The notes below the pieces were generated by a model, which worked only from the letters and a program-made list of their open reading frames with translations, had not been told where the DNA came from and made no database searches. From Herbinix sp. (lineage in GTDB: Bacteria > Bacillota > Clostridia > Lachnospirales > Lachnospiraceae): a DNA stretch of 64,000 nt. Positions 51,777-59,307 of the stretch are shown piece by piece. Both the position numbers and the translations under genes were made by a program. The stretch covers positions 1-64,000 of the forward strand of contig JAQSYO010000008.1 of assembly GCA_029256105.1 (NCBI GenBank), in the 5' to 3' direction. The first letter of the stretch is position 1. Every line of letters begins with the position of its first letter.

Positions 51777-51815
51777 TCTAGTAAATATCATGTAATAAAT
51801 AATACGATACATTTG

Positions 51816-51906
51816 AAAACCCAGCCCAGGTAATGTTGTTACCCTTATATGTTAGATTTTTAGGTCTAACATATGGGGGTCACATCATTACCTAGGCTGG
51901 GTTTTT
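51816..51906. terminator. Long palindromic terminator after the LysM-GH18 gene (core family copy 4)
   Basis: AAACCCAGCCCAGGTAATG pairs with CATTACCTAGGCTGGGTTT, followed by TTT. The inner core on the minus strand is GTTAGACCTAAAAATCTAAC (51870-51851), identical to copy 2. It separates two convergent genes and may serve both. Confidence 0.9.
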
Positions 51907-52165: not shown

Positions 52166-52332
52166 AAAAACCACCTCCGTAACTATATTATACCACTAAT
52201 ATGAATCGCATTCAATATTTGTAATATTTCCGAAAAAATATTTTAATACTCATTAAGTTCGAAAATGAAAATTCATTCTGAAAAGGGGAGTATTGCTTTT
52301 ATGAGTTTAAATTATGAATAAATATTATAGAT

Positions 52333-52364
52333 TTAAAGTACATTTAAGGCAAGCAGGATATAAT
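52333..52364 (+). promoter_or_regulatory. Candidate operator-promoter of the two-component system
   Basis: TTAAAGT (52333-52339) and TTTAAGG (52343-52349) repeat at an 11-bp step and are followed 9 nt later by TATAAT (52359-52364). The same box type and a similar distance to the -10 occur before the VTC operon at 54705-54759. The response regulator encoded next is OmpR-type, a class that binds such direct repeats. The 52365-52507 leader shows nothing else. Confidence 0.6.
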
Positions 52365-52507
52365 TCGAATTAGAAATAAATGTATGCCCAAACAAGGAGT
52401 GATGGGGGAGTAGTAAGGTGCATATGAATTTGCATCAGCAGATTTGAATTTTCGTATCATTTGGGATATGATAATAGAAGTAGGACGGGTAGATGGAGGG
52501 AAAGAAT

Positions 52508-53182
52508 ATGAGAATACTACTTGCTGAAGACGAAAAAGAAATGTCAAATGCATTAGTTGCTATTTTAAAACACAATAACTATTCTGTAGATGCTGTATAT
52601 GATGGTGCAGATGCCTTAGACTATGGACTTTCAGAGAATTATGACGTAATAATTTTAGATATTATGATGCCTAAGATGAACGGCTTAGAAGTACTAGAAA
52701 AGTTAAGAGTAAAAGGAATTCATACATCCATATTAATGCTCACTGCAAAGGCTGAAATAGAAGATCGCATACATGGACTGGATAAGGGGGCGGATGATTA
52801 TCTAAGTAAGCCGTTTGCTATGGGGGAATTATTGGCAAGAGTACGTGCCATGGGTAGACGGAAGTCCGAATTCACTCCGAACCTCATTGAGGTGGGTAAT
52901 ATTAAGCTTAACAAAGAAAATTATGAATTATCAAATGGTATTGCCTCGCTTAGACTTGCGAATAAGGAATTTCAGATGCTTGAGATGTTAATGACAAATC
53001 CCAAGCGTTTAATTTCTACAGAGCAGTTTATGGAACGTATATGGGGATATGATTCGGAAGCCGAGATTAATGTGGTGTGGGTATATATCTCTTATCTTCG
53101 TAAAAAACTTGCCTCCCTAGAGGCGAATGTAAAAATAAAAGCGGTAAGAGGTGTTGGCTATAGTTTGGAGGAAGGCGAATGA
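52508..53182 (+). CDS. OmpR-family response regulator
   Basis: A 224-residue regulator. The receiver has E7-D8, phospho-acceptor D51 in ILDIMMPKMNG, T79 and K101 in DYLSKPF. The winged helix has IASLRLANKEFQMLEML and EAEINVVWVYISYLRKKL. ATG 52508 has GGAGGGAAA upstream; an earlier in-frame ATG (52493) overlaps this site. It overlaps its kinase by 4 nt (ATGA). It probably controls its own genes and the VTC-DUF4956 operon, inferred from shared direct repeats. Confidence 0.92.
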   Translation: MRILLAEDEKEMSNALVAILKHNNYSVDAVYDGADALDYGLSENYDVIILDIMMPKMNGLEVLEKLRVKGIHTSILMLTAKAEIEDRIHGLDKGADDYLSKPFAMGELLARVRAMGRRKSEFTPNLIEVGNIKLNKENYELSNGIASLRLANKEFQMLEMLMTNPKRLISTEQFMERIWGYDSEAEINVVWVYISYLRKKLASLEANVKIKAVRGVGYSLEEGE

Positions 53183-54408
53183 TTAAGAAACTACAAAGAA
53201 AATTCATTATGATTACGATGGGATCCTTAGCTCTGGTAATGGTGATTTTAGTTGGATCGATTAATGGAATTTATCTTTTTAATATGAATAATAAAATCAA
53301 TGGAACTCTTGATATTCTTACGTTAAACCAAGGGCAGTTTCCGAAGTTTGATAAAGGAAATAAGCCGCCGAGAGAGCCTAGATTTGGATTTCAAATGAAT
53401 GAGGAGACCCCGTTTGAAACTCGATATTTTGTAGTAGAAGTGGGCAAAGACGGTAGCATCTATGAGATTGATACAAGCCATATTGCTGCGGTTTCTTCGG
53501 AAGATGCCGCGGATTATGCAAATAAGGTTATGAATGGAAGCAGGAACAGCGGGTATACAGATATCTATAAATACGTTGTTGTAGAAGAAGCCTATGGCTC
53601 CATGCTTATATTTGTGGACTGTAGGGGGCAGCTTCAAACTGCGAATATGTTTTTGCTAATATCTAGTGTGGTTGGATTAACAACGCTTCTACTTGTATTT
53701 ATACTTGTTTCTTTTCTCTCCAAAAAGGCAATAAATCCAATTATAGAAACTATGGAGAAGCAAAAACAGTTTATTACGAATGCCGGCCATGAGATTAAGA
53801 CGCCGCTTGCCATTATTTCTGCCAATGCAGATGTGCTGGAGCTGACAGGGGGCGAAAATGAATGGATTGTCAGCATACGAAATCAAATTACGCGCCTTGA
53901 TAAACTGGTAAAAAATCTTCTGACTTTATCAAAAGTAGAGGAGGGTGATATAAAGTTAGTATTTACTAAGTTTAATTTAAGTAAGGCTGTTCTCGAAACA
54001 GCTAGTACATTTAAGTCCATTGCAGAGATGCACAATAAAAGGTTTCAAATTGAAATTCAACCGCAGGTGGAACTACATGGGGATGAAAGCAGTATACAAC
54101 AGCTTGTTTCAACGCTTGTTGATAATGCAATGAAGTATTCGAATGAAGGAGGAACTATCAAAGTTTCTTTATACGCTACAAAAAAAGGAATAAAGTTAGA
54201 GGTATATAACACCACGGAGGTGATAGACACACAAAATTTAAGCAGGTTATTTGATCGATTTTATCGTGCCGATTCCTCGAGATCCAGAGAAACCGGTGGT
54301 TATGGAATTGGACTTTCCATTGCTAAATCAATTGTAGAGGCGCATCATGGAAAGATTTCAGTTAAAAGCGAGGATGGAAAATCAATTTGTTTTACTGTTG
54401 GGATATAA
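53179..54408 (+). CDS. Membrane sensor histidine kinase
   Basis: A 409-residue kinase with membrane segments at about residues 8-35 and 155-178. The roughly 115-residue extracytoplasmic sensor domain begins with a basic, proline-containing stretch (FDKGNKPPREPRFGF). HisKA is QFITNAGHEIKTPLAIISAN (His about 204), with no clear HAMP. The HATPase has STLVDNAMKYSNEGG and GGYGIGLSIAKSIV. The signal is unknown. It is coupled to the response regulator and followed, after a terminator, by the VTC operon. Confidence 0.92.
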   Translation: MIKKLQRKFIMITMGSLALVMVILVGSINGIYLFNMNNKINGTLDILTLNQGQFPKFDKGNKPPREPRFGFQMNEETPFETRYFVVEVGKDGSIYEIDTSHIAAVSSEDAADYANKVMNGSRNSGYTDIYKYVVVEEAYGSMLIFVDCRGQLQTANMFLLISSVVGLTTLLLVFILVSFLSKKAINPIIETMEKQKQFITNAGHEIKTPLAIISANADVLELTGGENEWIVSIRNQITRLDKLVKNLLTLSKVEEGDIKLVFTKFNLSKAVLETASTFKSIAEMHNKRFQIEIQPQVELHGDESSIQQLVSTLVDNAMKYSNEGGTIKVSLYATKKGIKLEVYNTTEVIDTQNLSRLFDRFYRADSSRSRETGGYGIGLSIAKSIVEAHHGKISVKSEDGKSICFTVGI

Positions 54409-54644
54409 TGCTCTAGGTACAAAGCAGATAGTTGATATAGTTAAAAGAAATAACAAACTACAAAGATGAGTTAGATTGCAGAAAACGAGGATGAGATAAG
54501 TACAAAGATAAGTTGGATGCAGAAAATGAAAAGAGTTAAGTAATATGAGGAGTTAGATGCAGATAACTATGATGCAGTTAACAAAGTTACAGATAATGAA
54601 GATGAGATAGATACTATAATGAATTAAATAACGAAGCTGTGCGA
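54409..54644. other. Spacer with degenerate short repeats
   Basis: No gene. The sequence consists of loosely repeated GATGAGTTAGATGCAGATAA-like motifs (for example 54465-54480, 54550-54610), resembling a decayed tandem repeat of about 20-24 bp. Confidence 0.5.
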
Positions 54645-54684
54645 GCAAGGGATGGATGATTTTTGTCATCTACCTTGCTTTTTT
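54645..54684 (+). terminator. Terminator of the two-component operon
   Basis: GCAAGG...GATGA pairs with TCATC...CCTTGC, followed by six T residues. Confidence 0.8.
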
Positions 54685-54704
54685 GTTGTCAGATAAATTC
54701 TAAA

Positions 54705-54759
54705 TTAAAGTAAATTTAAAGTAAAATTTAAAGTTGGTTTTAAGTAGACGAATTAGAAT
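54705..54759 (+). promoter_or_regulatory. Candidate operator-promoter of the VTC operon
   Basis: Four direct repeats: TTAAAGT at 54705, 54716 and 54728, and TTTAAGT at 54739 (steps 11, 12, 11 bp). A -10 TAGAAT follows at 54754-54759, 8 nt after the last box. There is no consensus -35. This is the layout of promoters activated by OmpR-family regulators. Confidence 0.65.
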
Positions 54760-54834
54760 GAATATATCAAAGGACATCAAACGAGTCAGAAAAGTAACAA
54801 AGACAGGACGGTTTATAAGTTTGGAGGAATTACA

Positions 54835-55569
54835 ATGAGCCAATATCAAGATACGTTTAAACGATATGAAATGAAATATTTACTGGATGAAAAGAAATAT
54901 AAATTGCTTAGACAGCGATTGCAGGAGGAGATGGTCGTTGATAATTATGGGAAAACAACGATTTGCAATATCTACTTTGATACACCGGAGCACTTACTCA
55001 TTCGTACTTCTTTGGAAAAACCGATTTATAAGGAGAAGTTAAGGCTGAGAAGTTATGGTACACCGATGGAGGGTGATACAGTTTATGTGGAACTTAAGAA
55101 GAAATATAAAGGTATTGTTTACAAGAGGCGTGAGAAAATGGAGCTATCCAGAGCAGAAAAATATCTTTATGATGGGGAGCCAGTTAATAAGCCATCACAG
55201 ATTACAAAAGAAATCGATTGGTTTTTAAAAAGCTATAAAGATTTAGTACCAGCCATGTATATTTCATATAGCCGAATCGCGATGTACGGGATTGAGGACG
55301 CTAACCTTCGTGTTACCTTTGACAGTGATCTTCTTTGGAGAGAGGAAGAACTTTGGTTAGGCTGTGGAGTCTGGGGTAATTCGCTACTTGAGGAAGCCCA
55401 GCAGCTTATGGAAATCAAAATTCCTGGGGCAATGCCGTTGTGGTTATCGCACCAATTGGATGAACTTGAGATTTACCCGATATCCTTTTCAAAATATGGC
55501 AGAGGGTATCAGCAAGCAGAATTGCAAAGAAGAAAGGAAAGATTAAAAGGAGAGATAAAATATGCTTAA
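54835..55569 (+). CDS. VTC-domain protein, polyphosphate polymerase-like
   Basis: A 244-residue protein consisting of one VTC tunnel domain. Conserved basic and acidic tunnel residues are present in order: RYEMKYLL (residues about 9-16), IYFDTP, KEKLRLRSYG, VYVELKKKYKGIVYKRR, ISYSRIAMYG, LRVTFD, LMEIKIPGAMP and SFSKYGRGY. In yeast Vtc4 this domain makes polyphosphate from ATP. Bacterial relatives are common but poorly studied; synthesis of, or binding to, polyphosphate or another phosphorylated substrate is inferred. It has no membrane segment and overlaps the DUF4956 gene by 8 nt, suggesting a complex at the membrane. Confidence 0.88.
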   Translation: MSQYQDTFKRYEMKYLLDEKKYKLLRQRLQEEMVVDNYGKTTICNIYFDTPEHLLIRTSLEKPIYKEKLRLRSYGTPMEGDTVYVELKKKYKGIVYKRREKMELSRAEKYLYDGEPVNKPSQITKEIDWFLKSYKDLVPAMYISYSRIAMYGIEDANLRVTFDSDLLWREEELWLGCGVWGNSLLEEAQQLMEIKIPGAMPLWLSHQLDELEIYPISFSKYGRGYQQAELQRRKERLKGEIKYA

Positions 55570-56227
55570 TTCTATTTTGACAAATACATTTTCAATCAAT
55601 ACATTTTTAATTTGTATTACAGCTTCTCTTATATTAGGAGCACTGATTGCATGGGTGCACAGTCGATACAACAATAGTAGTAAAGGCTTTGTCATGACAA
55701 TTGCACTGTTACCGGCGATTGTTCAAATGGTAATATTATTAGTGAATGGAAACCTTGGGACAGGAGTAGCGGTAATGGGAGCCTTTAGTCTAGTACGCTT
55801 TCGGTCTATACCAGGAAATGCAAAGGAAATTAGTAGTATTTTTATGGCAATGGCAATTGGGTTGGCAACCGGAACGGGTTATGTAGCGGTAGCAGTATTA
55901 TTTGTAATTATTGTTGGCGGCGTAAGTGTTGTATATAATATAACCTGCTTTGGTGAACCAAGGCAGAAAGAAAAAGAATTGAAGATTACCATTCCGGAAG
56001 GAGTGGACTATATGGAGATATATAATGACTTATTTAAGAAATATACAACAAAAACTGAGTTGATAAAAGCAAAGACTACGAATATGGGAAGCCTCTACAA
56101 ATTGGATTATCGAATCAGTTTAAAAAATCAGGCAGAAGAAAAATTATTTATTGATGAGCTTCGCTGTAGAAATGGAAATTTGGAGATAACCTGCGGAAAA
56201 GTCACAGCAGGTAGTGACGAACTTTAA
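55562..56227 (+). CDS. DUF4956 membrane protein
   Basis: A 221-residue protein with about four membrane segments (residues 10-33, 42-62, 68-85 and 95-125). The family signature VMGAFSLVRFRSIPGNAKEISSIFMAMAIGLATG is at about 75-110 (first 20 residues diagnostic). A cytoplasmic C-terminal domain follows (about 135-221). The function is unknown. These proteins almost always neighbour VTC-domain genes, often with CotH kinases or carbohydrate-binding lipoproteins. AAGGAG precedes the ATG inside the VTC gene. Confidence 0.88.
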   Translation: MLNSILTNTFSINTFLICITASLILGALIAWVHSRYNNSSKGFVMTIALLPAIVQMVILLVNGNLGTGVAVMGAFSLVRFRSIPGNAKEISSIFMAMAIGLATGTGYVAVAVLFVIIVGGVSVVYNITCFGEPRQKEKELKITIPEGVDYMEIYNDLFKKYTTKTELIKAKTTNMGSLYKLDYRISLKNQAEEKLFIDELRCRNGNLEITCGKVTAGSDEL

Positions 56228-56248
56228 TAGAAGGAATGAGGTAGTATA

Positions 56249-57943
56249 ATGAGAAAACGATGGAGATATATAACATCAATTTTAATGATAATGGCGATGC
56301 TTTTGACTGGGTGCACAACTAGCCAAGAGAATCAGACAAAAAGTAATACATCAGGTACAACAACAGCGCAAACAGAAACAATTGCAACTTCTTCGTCGGT
56401 AGTAGTGGATAAAGAATTTACAGCAAACGATTTGGATGTTGGATATGAGGATAGTACTTCAACCCATATAACATTGGAGGGAAGTGATATCGTGGTATCT
56501 GGTGATGGAGCAACGGCTCGGGATGGAGTAGTGACAATCAGTAGCAAAGGGACTTATGTAATCGCCGGCACGTTGCAGAATGGACAGATTATTGTGGATG
56601 CCGGGGATGCTGATAAGGTACAACTCGTATTAAATGGCATATCTGTTACTTGTTCTGATAATGCTCCTATCTATATAAAAAATGCAGATAAAACATTTAT
56701 TACATTGGGAGATGGAACAATAAATAACTTAATCGATGGTAAGGAATATGTTCAATCGGATGATAACAATGTAGATGGTGTAATCTATAGTAAGTCGGAT
56801 CTGACGATAAATGGGGATGGAACTTTAAATATTACAGGTAACTACAAGCATGGAATTGCATCAAAAGATGACCTCGTAATTACGGGAGGGACCTACAACA
56901 TAACAGCAGTGAAGGATGCTATCAATGGCAAAGACAGCGTAAAAATTAAGGACGGCACATTTATTCTGAGTGCGACTTTAGGAAATGGAATTCAGTCAAA
57001 GAATGGCGACGATACTACAAAGGGATTTGTATACATTTATGGTGGAACTATCACGATTACAAAATGCATGGAAGGAATTGAAGGAACGGCTATTATTATT
57101 GAAGGTGGTACAATTGATATAATAGCGGAAGACGATGGATTAAATGCTACAAGTGGCACAAGTGATACAACCGAAGTTACGACAATGGATACAGTCGCAG
57201 AAACCTTACCAGAAGCATTACCGGTAGCTACAACAGACGCAGACTCAAGTGCAACAACAGAGGAAACAACAGACCAAGCCGGATTTATAGCACCAGGAAA
57301 AGGAGAATTTGGTGGCGGTGGAGGTATGTTTGAAGTAGATACCAATGCATATATTTCAATTACAGGCGGAATGGTAACAATAGATGCATTGGGAGATGGA
57401 ATTGATTCCAATGGCACACTCTATATCTCAGGAGGAAATATTTACGTAAGTGGACCAACGAATAGTGGAAACGGTGGACTTGATTATAATGGAACTGCAG
57501 AAATAACGGGTGGAATTATTATCGTAGCGGGCAGTTCAGGGATGGCTCAGGGCTTCTCGGATACCTCCAGGCAATACTCACTTTTATATAACTTTACAAC
57601 AACGGTCGAAGCTGGTATGGAAGTGAAATTGACAGATCAAGAGGGTAAGGTAGTGGCAAATTACACACCAAATAAGCTTTATCAATCCGTGGTTATCAGT
57701 ACACCGGAGCTTACCAAAGATGAGACATATACCCTAACTGCGGGGAGCCAGACGGCAGATATTACACTATCTTCAATAGTAACCAGCAACGGACAGCAAG
57801 GAATGATGGGTCAAGGAAATCAAGTAAGACAAGGCATACAAAGAGGCCAGGGAGCGCAACCAGGTAAGGATGGTATGGCAAGACCGGGAGCTGGGAATGT
57901 CACAGAGGGTACGGAAAATCCGAATAATAACTTAGTAGAATAA
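56249..57943 (+). CDS. Carbohydrate-binding domain lipoprotein (Cthe_2159-like, DUF4353)
   Basis: A 564-residue exported lipoprotein (signal peptide with lipobox LLTGC, Cys about 22). After a S/T-rich linker a beta-helix repeat region follows, with recurrent GDGTLNITGNYKHGIASKDD, ITGGTYNITAVKDAINGKDS and GGTIDIIAEDDGLNA-type turns. A T/E-rich insertion lies at about 305-350. The C-terminal 45 residues are rich in G, Q and M. The relative Cthe_2159 of Clostridium thermocellum is a calcium-containing beta-helix that binds acidic polysaccharides. It is the last gene of the VTC operon. Confidence 0.85.
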   Translation: MRKRWRYITSILMIMAMLLTGCTTSQENQTKSNTSGTTTAQTETIATSSSVVVDKEFTANDLDVGYEDSTSTHITLEGSDIVVSGDGATARDGVVTISSKGTYVIAGTLQNGQIIVDAGDADKVQLVLNGISVTCSDNAPIYIKNADKTFITLGDGTINNLIDGKEYVQSDDNNVDGVIYSKSDLTINGDGTLNITGNYKHGIASKDDLVITGGTYNITAVKDAINGKDSVKIKDGTFILSATLGNGIQSKNGDDTTKGFVYIYGGTITITKCMEGIEGTAIIIEGGTIDIIAEDDGLNATSGTSDTTEVTTMDTVAETLPEALPVATTDADSSATTEETTDQAGFIAPGKGEFGGGGGMFEVDTNAYISITGGMVTIDALGDGIDSNGTLYISGGNIYVSGPTNSGNGGLDYNGTAEITGGIIIVAGSSGMAQGFSDTSRQYSLLYNFTTTVEAGMEVKLTDQEGKVVANYTPNKLYQSVVISTPELTKDETYTLTAGSQTADITLSSIVTSNGQQGMMGQGNQVRQGIQRGQGAQPGKDGMARPGAGNVTEGTENPNNNLVE

Positions 57944-57955
57944 TGTAAATATTAA

Positions 57956-57996
57956 AAATAGAGTAATCAGCTGAGGTCATGCTGATTACTCTATTT
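57956..57996 (+). terminator. Terminator of the VTC operon
   Basis: AAATAGAGTAATCAGC pairs perfectly with GCTGATTACTCTATTT across a 9-nt loop. The T-tract is short (AGATTT). A second inverted repeat ATAGAATG/CATTCTAT follows at 58009-58037, nearer to the encapsulin gene end. Confidence 0.8.
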
Positions 57997-58093: not shown

Positions 58094-58909
58094 CTATTCA
58101 AAAACGGTAACCGCCTGCTTGCGCTTGATTCGAAGCAATATGGATTCTAAAACGCGAAAACTATGATTTAAGTCCTTTTGCTCCAAATAAGCGGTAGCCA
58201 TATCCTGACCTACGACAAGATCCATATTCCTTGAATCGGAGCAGACAAGAACGGCCTTTCCGATTCCTAAGACGGAAGAAACAAAGACATTTCCATTCAG
58301 TATTTTACTGATGCGTTCATATTCCAATAAACCAGTTCCGGGCTGTATCCGTTGTAACTGCATATAAAGATCAGGGCTGACAGTTAGTGCATAAGTTCCA
58401 TAGATACCATTAACCGTAAACAACTCCAGAGCAGATACAATATCGGCGAAGGCATTTTCACCTGTAGCCCAATCTGATTTCTTGATTTTATTAATTCCGG
58501 AGGCGGTTAATAAACCTTCATAACCATACGTTGCATTGCCAAAAAAGATTAAGTTATCTTCTTTCCTTGCACAAGCTTCAGCAGAATAGGCAGCTTTTGA
58601 AAGGTCGATGGGATAACCATATTTCTTACTGCTTTCTAAATCTTTAGCCAAAAGAGTAAAATCGTCATATACGGTAGGGATTTCAACATACTTTCTCCCT
58701 TTCGTTGTAATTAATCCGTTATCTGAAATCTCATCTAAGGTATCAGAATCATCAATTGAGATACTCTCAGCACCAATTCCCAAAGGACCAAAAATATGCA
58801 AAAATTTTCTACCGGTTAAAGCTTTGCGCGCTGTATTGACGATGGAAGCATCAATTTGATCCCATAATTCTGAAGATAGTGGTGCAGCTTCTCTTGATAA
58901 GTAACTCAT
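58094..58909 (-). CDS. Encapsulin nanocompartment shell protein
   Basis: A 271-residue HK97-fold shell protein of the linocin M18/CFP29 family. The start YLSREAAPLSSELWDQIDASIV, GRKFLHIFGPLGIGAE, RKYVEIPTVYDDFTLLAKDLE (first 20 residues diagnostic), EDNLIFFGN and the ending VVGQDMATAYLEQKDLNHSFRVLES are characteristic. Many copies self-assemble into an icosahedral cage that encloses a cargo enzyme. The cargo gene lies 26 bp upstream in the same operon. AAGGAGGAG precedes the ATG. It is class (family) 1 encapsulin by sequence. Confidence 0.95.
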   Translation of the reverse strand: MSYLSREAAPLSSELWDQIDASIVNTARKALTGRKFLHIFGPLGIGAESISIDDSDTLDEISDNGLITTKGRKYVEIPTVYDDFTLLAKDLESSKKYGYPIDLSKAAYSAEACARKEDNLIFFGNATYGYEGLLTASGINKIKKSDWATGENAFADIVSALELFTVNGIYGTYALTVSPDLYMQLQRIQPGTGLLEYERISKILNGNVFVSSVLGIGKAVLVCSDSRNMDLVVGQDMATAYLEQKDLNHSFRVLESILLRIKRKQAVTVFE

Positions 58910-58935
58910 TTTATCTCCTCCTTTATAAATATTAT

Positions 58936-59307
58936 TTATTGGTTTGTTAAACCACCTACAGTTTCCAAACCGGAAGTTGCTGAAGTTTGTTCAACGGAGT
59001 TCGTCGATAAACCCAAGTCTTCGAGCATTTCTTTTACCTCAGTCTCGCCTGCAAAGAATAATTCGGCTTCCTTCGGATCAAGAATCCGCAACAACGTCAT
59101 TAATTCCCCTACATGTGATTTTTCCTCATCGCGAATATCCGCAAGCACCTTTTTTGCTATTTCTTCAGATGTTGCTTGAACATGAGCATCGTATACGTAA
59201 ATTGCCTCCAATTCACCTGCGATATCCAAGCGTACGGCTTGAATTAATTCTTCCTTAGTCATTTTCCTATCAACATTTCCTTGAAAGGGGTTTGCAAAAG
59301 CCGGCAT
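58936..59307 (-). CDS. Encapsulated ferritin-like protein (encapsulin cargo)
   Basis: A 123-residue cargo. The two-helix ferritin-like core has iron ligands in GELEAIYVYDAH (E32, E34, Y39) and DEEKSHVGE (E62, H65). These positions match the numbering I recall for Rhodospirillum rubrum EncFtn. After about residue 95 a flexible linker leads to the C-terminal TVGGLTNQ, which resembles the TVGSL cargo-loading peptide. It should oxidise Fe(II) for mineral storage inside the shell. GGAGG lies 7 nt before the ATG. A Fur/PerR-like box overlaps its promoter region. Confidence 0.92.
   Translation of the reverse strand: MPAFANPFQGNVDRKMTKEELIQAVRLDIAGELEAIYVYDAHVQATSEEIAKKVLADIRDEEKSHVGELMTLLRILDPKEAELFFAGETEVKEMLEDLGLSTNSVEQTSATSGLETVGGLTNQ

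Follow-up and report, generated by a model that had tools for sequence, protein, structure and literature searches.

Introduction

A PhoB-type class II activator promoter is defined by direct repeats at 11-bp steps, a fixed distance from these repeats to the -10 element and the absence of a -35 element, and the box of PmrA/BasR regulators reads YTTAAK-N5-YTTAAK. Here we describe a locus in a 64,000-nt stretch of Herbinix sp. DNA (Lachnospiraceae; GenBank assembly GCA_029256105.1, contig JAQSYO010000008.1, positions 1 to 64,000 of the forward strand; hereafter "the window"), in which a two-component system and a neighbouring operon appear to share an operator of PhoB-like geometry. This operon encodes a VTC-domain polyphosphate-type polymerase, a DUF4956 membrane protein and a Cthe_2159-type surface lipoprotein.

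Among the known systems closest to this locus are the Pel loci of Gram-positive bacteria, whose accessory genes, in the accessible parts of two papers, comprise CotH, polyphosphate polymerase, DUF4956 and DUF4832 (PMC7112168; PMC12345266). The second of these partial texts, from 2025, describes a Streptococcus intermedius gene with four MgtC-type transmembrane segments and an ACT domain, located beside a polyphosphate polymerase gene. In the NELoc-2 locus of Clostridium perfringens, as far as the accessible text goes, VTC genes are each followed by a gene of 222-226 aa, with CotH nearby (PMC2879425).

An operator shared by two promoters

As a whole, we consider it probable that an autoregulated, PhoB-like two-component system would activate the module formed by VTC, the MgtC-like DUF4956 protein and the lipoprotein. 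Comparison across genomes supports the operator, its link to this family of response regulators (RRs) and the autoregulation; binding, activation as its direction, the polymer and its export are what we infer.

In the promoter of the RR operon, the half-sites are TTTAAAGT (52332-52339) and TTTAAGG (52343-52349), at a step of 11, with the -10 element at 52359-52364. Four half-sites precede the VTC gene, ATTAAAGT at 54704, TTTAAAGT at 54715 and again at 54727, and TTTTAAGT at 54738, at steps of 11, 12 and 11. A preliminary description of the locus had reported TTAAAGT-type direct repeats followed by a -10 element before both genes, which is confirmed, except that the RR site is a single pair whose second half reads TTTAAGG and not TTAAAGT. 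From the last 7-mer to the -10 element there are 9 nt in both promoters (8 nt at VTC if TTTTAAGT is counted whole), and the distance between the first bases of the last 7-mer and of the -10 is 16 nt in both. No TTGACA-like -35 hexamer at a spacer of 16-18 could be seen by eye in either promoter. The locus therefore shows the 11-bp direct repeats, the fixed -10 distance and the lack of a -35 that characterize a PhoB-type class II activator promoter.

Exact pairs TTAAAGT-N3..6-TTAAAGT occur twice in the window, both at VTC, where 0.02 were expected, whereas TTAAAGT as a lone 7-mer shows no excess (16 found, 23.5 expected), so it is the spacing rather than the heptamer that is unusual. Searched throughout this genome, the fixed-spacing pattern has exactly two perfect sites, the RR and VTC promoters, and a scan of the whole genome G099 returned the same two. 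A third regulon member did not rise above background in this genome, where the pattern with up to two mismatches gives 5 sites against 6 for a reversed-pattern control. The features of the locus are collected in Table 1.

Table 1. Coordinates in the window of the regulator operon, the VTC operon and their control elements
Feature	Position	Strand	Basis
Operator of regulator operon, half-sites TTTAAAG / TTTAAGG, step 11	52332..52349	+	Direct reading; model score 20.4
-10 element TATAAT of RR promoter, 16 nt from start of second half-site	52359..52364	+	
Relic of 3' end of RelA_SpoT-type small alarmone synthetase gene, in RR leader	52420..52494	+	Protein-query search
Response regulator (RR), OmpR/PhoB type, presumed DNA-reading helix NVVWVYISYLRKKL	52508..53182	+	Response_reg + Trans_reg_C
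Sensor histidine kinase (HK)	53179..54408	+	HisKA + HATPase_c
Terminator-like hairpin, then T run	54643..54680	+	-19.8 kcal/mol
Operator of VTC operon, four half-sites, steps 11, 12, 11	54704..54745	+	Direct reading, chance counts, model
-10 element TAGAAT of VTC promoter	54754..54759	+	
VTC-domain polyphosphate-type polymerase	54835..55569	+	PF09359, 138 bits
DUF4956 membrane protein, MgtC-like helices and C-terminal ACT-like domain	55562..56227	+	PF16316, 57 bits
Cthe_2159-type surface lipoprotein, lipobox LLTGC	56249..57943	+	PF14262, 266 bits; PDB 4peu, E 1e-31
Terminator-like hairpin past lipoprotein gene	57956..57996	+	-23.1 kcal/mol

By their domains, the neighbouring regulator genes form an OmpR/PhoB-type pair, with a receiver and a winged helix in the RR and HisKA and HATPase domains in the kinase. 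They overlap by 4 nt, and the VTC and DUF4956 genes by 8 nt (55562-55569). The RR start is likely to be the ATG at 52508 rather than 52493, as its homologues begin there. For the HK, AlphaFold2 (pLDDT 88) predicts two long helices that flank a small alpha/beta sensor domain outside the cytoplasm, and a fold search with this domain gave weak matches only (best E 0.022). The terminator-like hairpin between the HK gene and the VTC operon means that VTC should need a promoter of its own. Imperfect repeats of a 29-nt family (54448-54612, spacing 40-54) lie between the end of the HK gene and this hairpin; they were considered as part of the operator and rejected, no relation to it being found, and a 22-base composite of them has no further copy in the window at 3 mismatches.

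Conservation of the box in front of VTC operons

The comparison started from 80 VTC-DUF4956 neighbourhoods of genomes from the same family, found with the DUF4956 protein, plus the window (81 loci); one of the 80 is the second VTC-DUF4956 locus of this genome. The box model (half-site, 11, half-site, 14-19, -10; threshold 16) was built by hand after viewing 20 loci and then the first set, and was frozen before a held-out set of 71 loci from named genomes was scored (80 fetched, 9 duplicates removed). This makes 152 loci and 150 usable VTC upstream regions, since L109 has no VTC gene and L051 ends at a contig end. Loci were classed by the letters, read across loci, of the RR helix that we take to be the recognition helix (NVVWVYISYLRKKL in the window).

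When TT[AC]A[AG] pairs before VTC are simply counted in the first set, the maximum falls at step 11, with pairs in 8 of 20 loci with a VVW-type RR, 7 of 9 with a VEAY- or VEVY-type RR and 10 of 50 without an RR nearby (shuffle means at most 0.75). Other steps are mostly at background, with 10, 12 and 13 elevated in the VVW class. On the opposite strand, step-11 pairs occur in 0/20 VVW and 6/9 VEAY/VEVY loci, the latter as expected because there the box would face a divergent RR. Step-11 repeats facing away from VTC also occur in 4 of the 50 other loci, although no RR was found near these.

In the held-out set the box precedes VTC in 47 of the 71 loci, with shuffle means summing to about 1.2. 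By class, it is found in 17/22 VVW, 4/4 VEAY, 10/14 other and 16/31 loci with no RR nearby, against shuffle means of 0.45, 0, 0.30 and 0.40. High scores are likewise obtained at steps 10 and 12, in the VVW class for instance in 15 and 12 of 22 loci (at most 4/22 at steps 9 and 13), probably because a shift of one base still allows the half-sites to be read. With the two sets combined, a box is found in 88 of 150 VTC promoters, and other genes of these loci have one in 7 of their 557 upstream regions; among the seven are an alarmone synthetase gene that heads an RR operon and a gene located between HK and VTC. The latter case (L209, 3409-4044) is an extra gene preceded by the box as if it now headed the VTC operon. 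Moreover, three spacer positions that the model does not score are conserved in the boxes (T at 0.86, 0.84 and 0.79).

Phased T/A-rich units at 11 bp might also be plain A/T-rich promoter DNA (an UP-element or a bend, for instance) that has no regulator of its own. This explanation seems to us very improbable, as the signal is absent from dinucleotide shuffles and from most other steps, is rare before other genes and lacking before paralogous VTC genes (0/11, see below), and carries an A or C letter that covaries with the RR helix.

The gap from the box to the -10 element is 16 in 73 of the 88 boxes, although 14-19 was permitted. Such constancy also bears on whether the RR could repress, through a box overlapping the -35 region, instead of activating. 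The last half-site does occupy the -35 position, as repression would have it, but neither promoter has a -35 hexamer under the box, so that each should be weak without an activator, and the fixed spacing resembles PhoB-type activation; we thus regard repression as improbable and activation as the preferred direction.

The box and its probable regulator

The letters of the box follow those of the linked RR. Among 49 loci with a VVW-type RR, 40 have a TTTAAG (A-type) box, none a C-type box and 9 no box, and the 11 loci with a VEAY-type RR have 9 TTTCAG (C-type) and 2 A-type boxes (Fisher 1.8e-8, uncorrected for shared ancestry and for that reason overstated, like all such p-values here). The VEVY-type locus L105 has CTTCAAT-N4-CTTCAAT before the RR and TTTCAAT-N4-CTTCAAT before VTC; in L101, of the same type, CTTCAAT-N4-CTTCAAT lies before VTC with a sub-threshold score (14.5).

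Distribution within the genus points in the same direction. Across its 34 genomes, an RR orthologue (at least 82% identity over the part found) is present in 9 and a DUF4956 orthologue (at least 75% identity) in 8, all of them within the former nine. The box is present at each of the seven orthologous VTC promoters, at a gap of 16 and with scores of 18.2-19.3; at least four of these promoters apparently are the same sequences as the held-out L149, L152, L153 and L154. In contrast, none of 11 paralogous VTC-DUF4956 promoters has it (best 14.4, the second locus of this genome included; one, L269, was covered by 84 nt upstream only), and no RR, HK or lipoprotein gene was found in the fetched stretches of the paralogous loci. 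The second pair of this genome (C21; L002 / L113) accordingly stands without lipoprotein, two-component system or box. On the regulator side, the box precedes the RR gene (5) or the gene heading its operon (3) in 8 of the 9 RR orthologues, window included, with a gap of 14 instead of 16 in G336; the remaining one, G309, scores 15.5 and has its alarmone synthetase gene in two fragments at a contig end. In G110 the RR and VTC genes lie on separate contigs, and the box precedes both.

The expectation that the boxes would recur before orthologous VTC operons was thus borne out, and the proposed autoregulation and control of the VTC operon find strong support in the genus orthologues, the held-out loci, the helix/box covariation and the RR promoters; activation remains the part that we infer.

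Several observations weigh against this interpretation. VTC promoters below the box threshold number 62 of 150, including 9 that have a VVW-type RR in their vicinity, and G302 retains the RR without this type of VTC. LEAY-type RRs pair with A-type boxes (4 A, 0 C and 2 none, of 6), and for this reason the helix rule must be more than VVW versus the rest. Boxes at RR promoters are less regular, with 18 of 40 held-out RR upstream regions at a score of at least 14.5, a count on which it bears that some of these RRs are not first in their operon. The pattern with up to two mismatches is close to background in five relatives (40 matches against 31 for the reversed pattern); with a tighter limit, twelve genomes gave 31 against 10.

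A further difficulty is that 32 of the 82 loci without a detected RR nearby nonetheless carry the box. Given also the size of this RR family, with up to 147 first-look candidates per genome, the repeats could be an operator read by another RR of the family encoded elsewhere, the linked system being a bystander. We judge this unlikely, though somewhat less so than repression: the box letter tracks the linked helix for the VVW and VEAY types, the genus members with this VTC type all have the RR (8/8), this genome has only two perfect sites, and the unlinked RR orthologue of G110 has the same box, which shows how a locus can have a box with no RR beside it. The linked RR therefore remains our preferred reader of the operator.

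Two further sites may mark additional regulon members, recurrence being shown for neither. One is a perfect operator match upstream of ApbE and 4Fe-4S membrane protein genes in G110 (L123, 1501-1533), and the other, in Anaerosacchariphilus polymeriproducens (G082; L124, 1501-1533), stands some 60 nt upstream of a gene for a GT2-GtrA glycosyltransferase that is close to the regulator.

A relic of an alarmone synthetase gene

The leader of the window's RR gene contains a stretch that matches the alarmone synthetases of relatives over 18-27 aa at 59-64% identity. It is the best match in the window with each of four query proteins (E 3.7e-5, 2.7e-4, 0.003 and 0.23; the next at 0.30 or worse), and counterparts exist in L034, L148 and, interrupted by stops, L035. 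A full-length RelA_SpoT-type gene lies before the RR in G334, G336, G302 and L150 (the RelA_SpoT model was run on the genes of G334, G302 and L150), preceded by the box with scores of 17.2, 19.0, 19.5 and 18.2, respectively. Within the genus, this linked type (at least 75% identity) occurs only in the RR-bearing G334, G336, G302 and G309, whereas more distant alarmone synthetases are present in 34/34 genomes; the box is absent at three other genes of more distant type (42-44% identity), in the fetched loci L075, L098 and L099. To judge from these alignments, the RR operon of the window probably once began with an alarmone synthetase gene, whose loss would have left the operator adjoining the RR. 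If true, a link of alarmone synthesis to a polyphosphate-type operon would, to our knowledge, be new.

A match to TTGAAT-N17-TATGAT located 62-64 nt upstream of the RR, with counterparts in L034, L148 and L258 (in L035 at 114), was considered as a constitutive second sigma-A promoter. We rejected this as the primary reading because in L258 these letters encode the end of the alarmone synthetase and in the window they belong to its relic, although the match may still work as a promoter.

Proteins of the target operon

A VTC profile built from 61 homologues aligns through its positions 1-168 (of 228) with Vtc4 (PDB 3g3q, E 2e-11), the best solved relative. Ten residues are invariant in the 61 sequences (R70, R72, E86, K88, R98, R147, E193, K195, S219 and K220); we take these positions to be catalytic, the Vtc4 alignment stopping short of the last four. 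Only PF09359 was matched by the protein, and the SPX domain of the eukaryotic VTC complex was not. Neither PPK1 nor PPK2 has a match in the genome at E 1e-3 (assembly 98.5% complete), so that, of the three families searched, only VTC supplies polymerase candidates, with its two genes.

For DUF4956, AlphaFold2 (pLDDT 79) predicts five helices (12-36, 41-60, 65-82, 87-105 and 108-128) followed by an alpha/beta domain weakly like ferredoxin-like, ACT and CutA folds; matches of this type lead the fold search (best E 0.011), and a sequence search found no solved relative. The preliminary description of DUF4956 as a four-helix membrane protein thus falls short, given the predicted ACT-like domain at the C-terminus. 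The MgtC model PF02308 does not match the window protein, and among 79 homologues 26 are matched weakly (best E 7e-4), compared with up to 15 of 79 for unrelated families used as control (best E 0.002-0.008). With hhalign, DUF4956 and MgtC align at a probability of 43% and E 2.4e-4, a similarity that is weak but repeated. That DUF4956 has no assigned function, as had been stated, is partly out of date: in the accessible part of one report, deletion of the S. intermedius gene of the MgtC plus ACT type, SIR_1592, led to less aggregation and more Pel signal (PMC12345266).

The lipoprotein passes the PF14262 cut-off of the Cthe_2159 carbohydrate-binding family and is related to the solved Cthe_2159 structure. 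Clustering of open reading frames over the 152 loci finds VTC in 140, DUF4956 in 135, the lipoprotein in 108, HK in 73 and RR in 64, the last two counts taking any HK or RR in the fetched stretch; the next most frequent cluster occurs in 14.

It is plausible that the three proteins together make or display a phosphorylated polymer at the cell surface. We favour this joint function because the VTC residues are invariant, Vtc4 is the best solved relative, PPK1 and PPK2 have no match and these genes are the most constant neighbours. Against it stands the S. intermedius polymerase-type gene SIR_1593, whose deletion brought no reported change in the accessible part of that study (PMC12345266). Under the same regulation, VTC and DUF4956 could instead phosphorylate or tune a surface polysaccharide rather than make free surface polyphosphate, as may occur in Pel loci, and we take this as a serious possibility, though not the leading one. 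According to the accessible text of PMC7112168, pel genes of streptococci and clostridia can be accompanied by CotH, DUF4956 and a polyphosphate polymerase, and the Pel and aggregation phenotypes of SIR_1592 would fit, as would the box before the GT2-GtrA gene of G082. Here, however, none of the 8 window proteins scanned is a pel or CotH product, and no further gene cluster exceeds 14 of 152 loci (the clusters were not scanned with pel or CotH models). The invariance of the active-type residues of VTC and the missing PPK1/PPK2 matches also argue for polyphosphate itself, which we continue to prefer.

Proposed mechanism and significance

In the mechanism that we propose, the HK would sense an extracytoplasmic signal, and the phosphorylated RR would bind head-to-tail on 11-bp-spaced TTTAAGG-type repeats in place of a -35 element, recruiting RNA polymerase to a -10 at a distance of 16 nt, counted from where the last half-site begins, in the manner of PhoB. 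The RR would activate its own operon through one pair and the VTC-DUF4956-Cthe_2159 operon through four half-sites. VTC, membrane-bound and coupled to the MgtC-like/ACT-like DUF4956 and the surface lipoprotein, would most likely polymerise phosphate from ATP at the cytosolic face; DUF4956 could anchor, gate or pass the chain, and the lipoprotein would act outside. The role of DUF4956 as a gate and a surface role of the product are conjectural.

A broader scenario, which we offer as a speculation that is rather doubtful as a whole, is that in many Lachnospiraceae and other Clostridia a single self-amplifying two-component switch runs a PPK-independent polyphosphate surface machine (VTC, a MgtC-like DUF4956 gate and an acid-sugar-binding lipoprotein). 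A ppGpp synthetase gene sharing the operon of the switch would formerly have tied it to the alarmone response; in the lineage of the window this gene would have been lost, with a 25-residue relic left behind.

VTC-DUF4956 pairs are common in this family, without a settled function: the DUF4956 protein is matched in 222 of 299 genomes at E 1e-3, about 147 of them at 1e-25 or better (hand count), and the roughly 75 weak matches are probably MgtC or other relatives. A defined operator, a linked regulator and a sharp promoter geometry provide a direct handle on these genes, since the operator predicts which genes are co-regulated, and the HK opens a way to the signal. As this genome has no more than two perfect sites, a single mutant could answer the question of the polymer. 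The helix/box covariation is moreover a natural data set for RR-DNA specificity.

Neighbouring elements

After the LysM/GH18 gene upstream of the locus, a very long and near-perfect hairpin (51815-51906, -60.5 kcal/mol) could be a strong terminator or a small mobile-element-like repeat. Just past the VTC operon, on the minus strand (58094-59307), an encapsulin shell gene (PF04454) stands next to an EncFtn-like ferritin gene; the shell gene cluster is present in 3 of the 152 loci.

Comparison with known systems

The kind of regulation proposed here is known, and this regulon and its wiring were not found in the literature searched, where we saw no paper on the regulation of VTC-DUF4956-Cthe_2159 operons, some searches being too broad to exclude one. 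With PhoB-type class II activation the locus shares head-to-tail 11-bp repeats, the last of them replacing the -35, a fixed -10 distance and autoregulation. It differs in its half-site, which is TTTAAGG or TTTCAG where PhoB has the pho box, and in its target, the VTC operon. Nor are the proteins PhoB and PhoR themselves by their equivalog models (179 bits against a cut-off of 296, and 187 against 334). The nearest NCBIfam model for the RR is RppA, at 230 bits and under the cut-off of 250, and the kinase reaches 179 of the 400 bits set for RppB, so that the pair does not match the RppA/RppB equivalogs either. The PmrA/BasR box, compared by consensus alone, has a very similar half-site and the same 11-bp step, but the RR falls under the PmrA cut-off (170 bits against 330).

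As for the target operon, the yeast VTC complex shares with it the polymerase domain of Vtc4, aligned over the first three quarters, and differs in that here no SPX domain was matched and DUF4956 would serve as the membrane partner. MgtC shares a weak profile similarity in the helix region and the ACT-like C-terminus, even though its model misses the window protein; the likeness to MgtC has already been stated for the similar S. intermedius protein in the accessible part of PMC12345266. The partner gene in NELoc-2 is annotated as "tubulin/FtsZ" in the available text (PMC2879425), and from its size and position our guess is that it could be a DUF4956 gene. Finally, the Pel accessory loci, as described in the accessible texts, share a polyphosphate polymerase adjoining a DUF4956-type gene, whereas the locus described here has, with no pel gene among the proteins scanned, a Cthe_2159 lipoprotein and a two-component system of its own.

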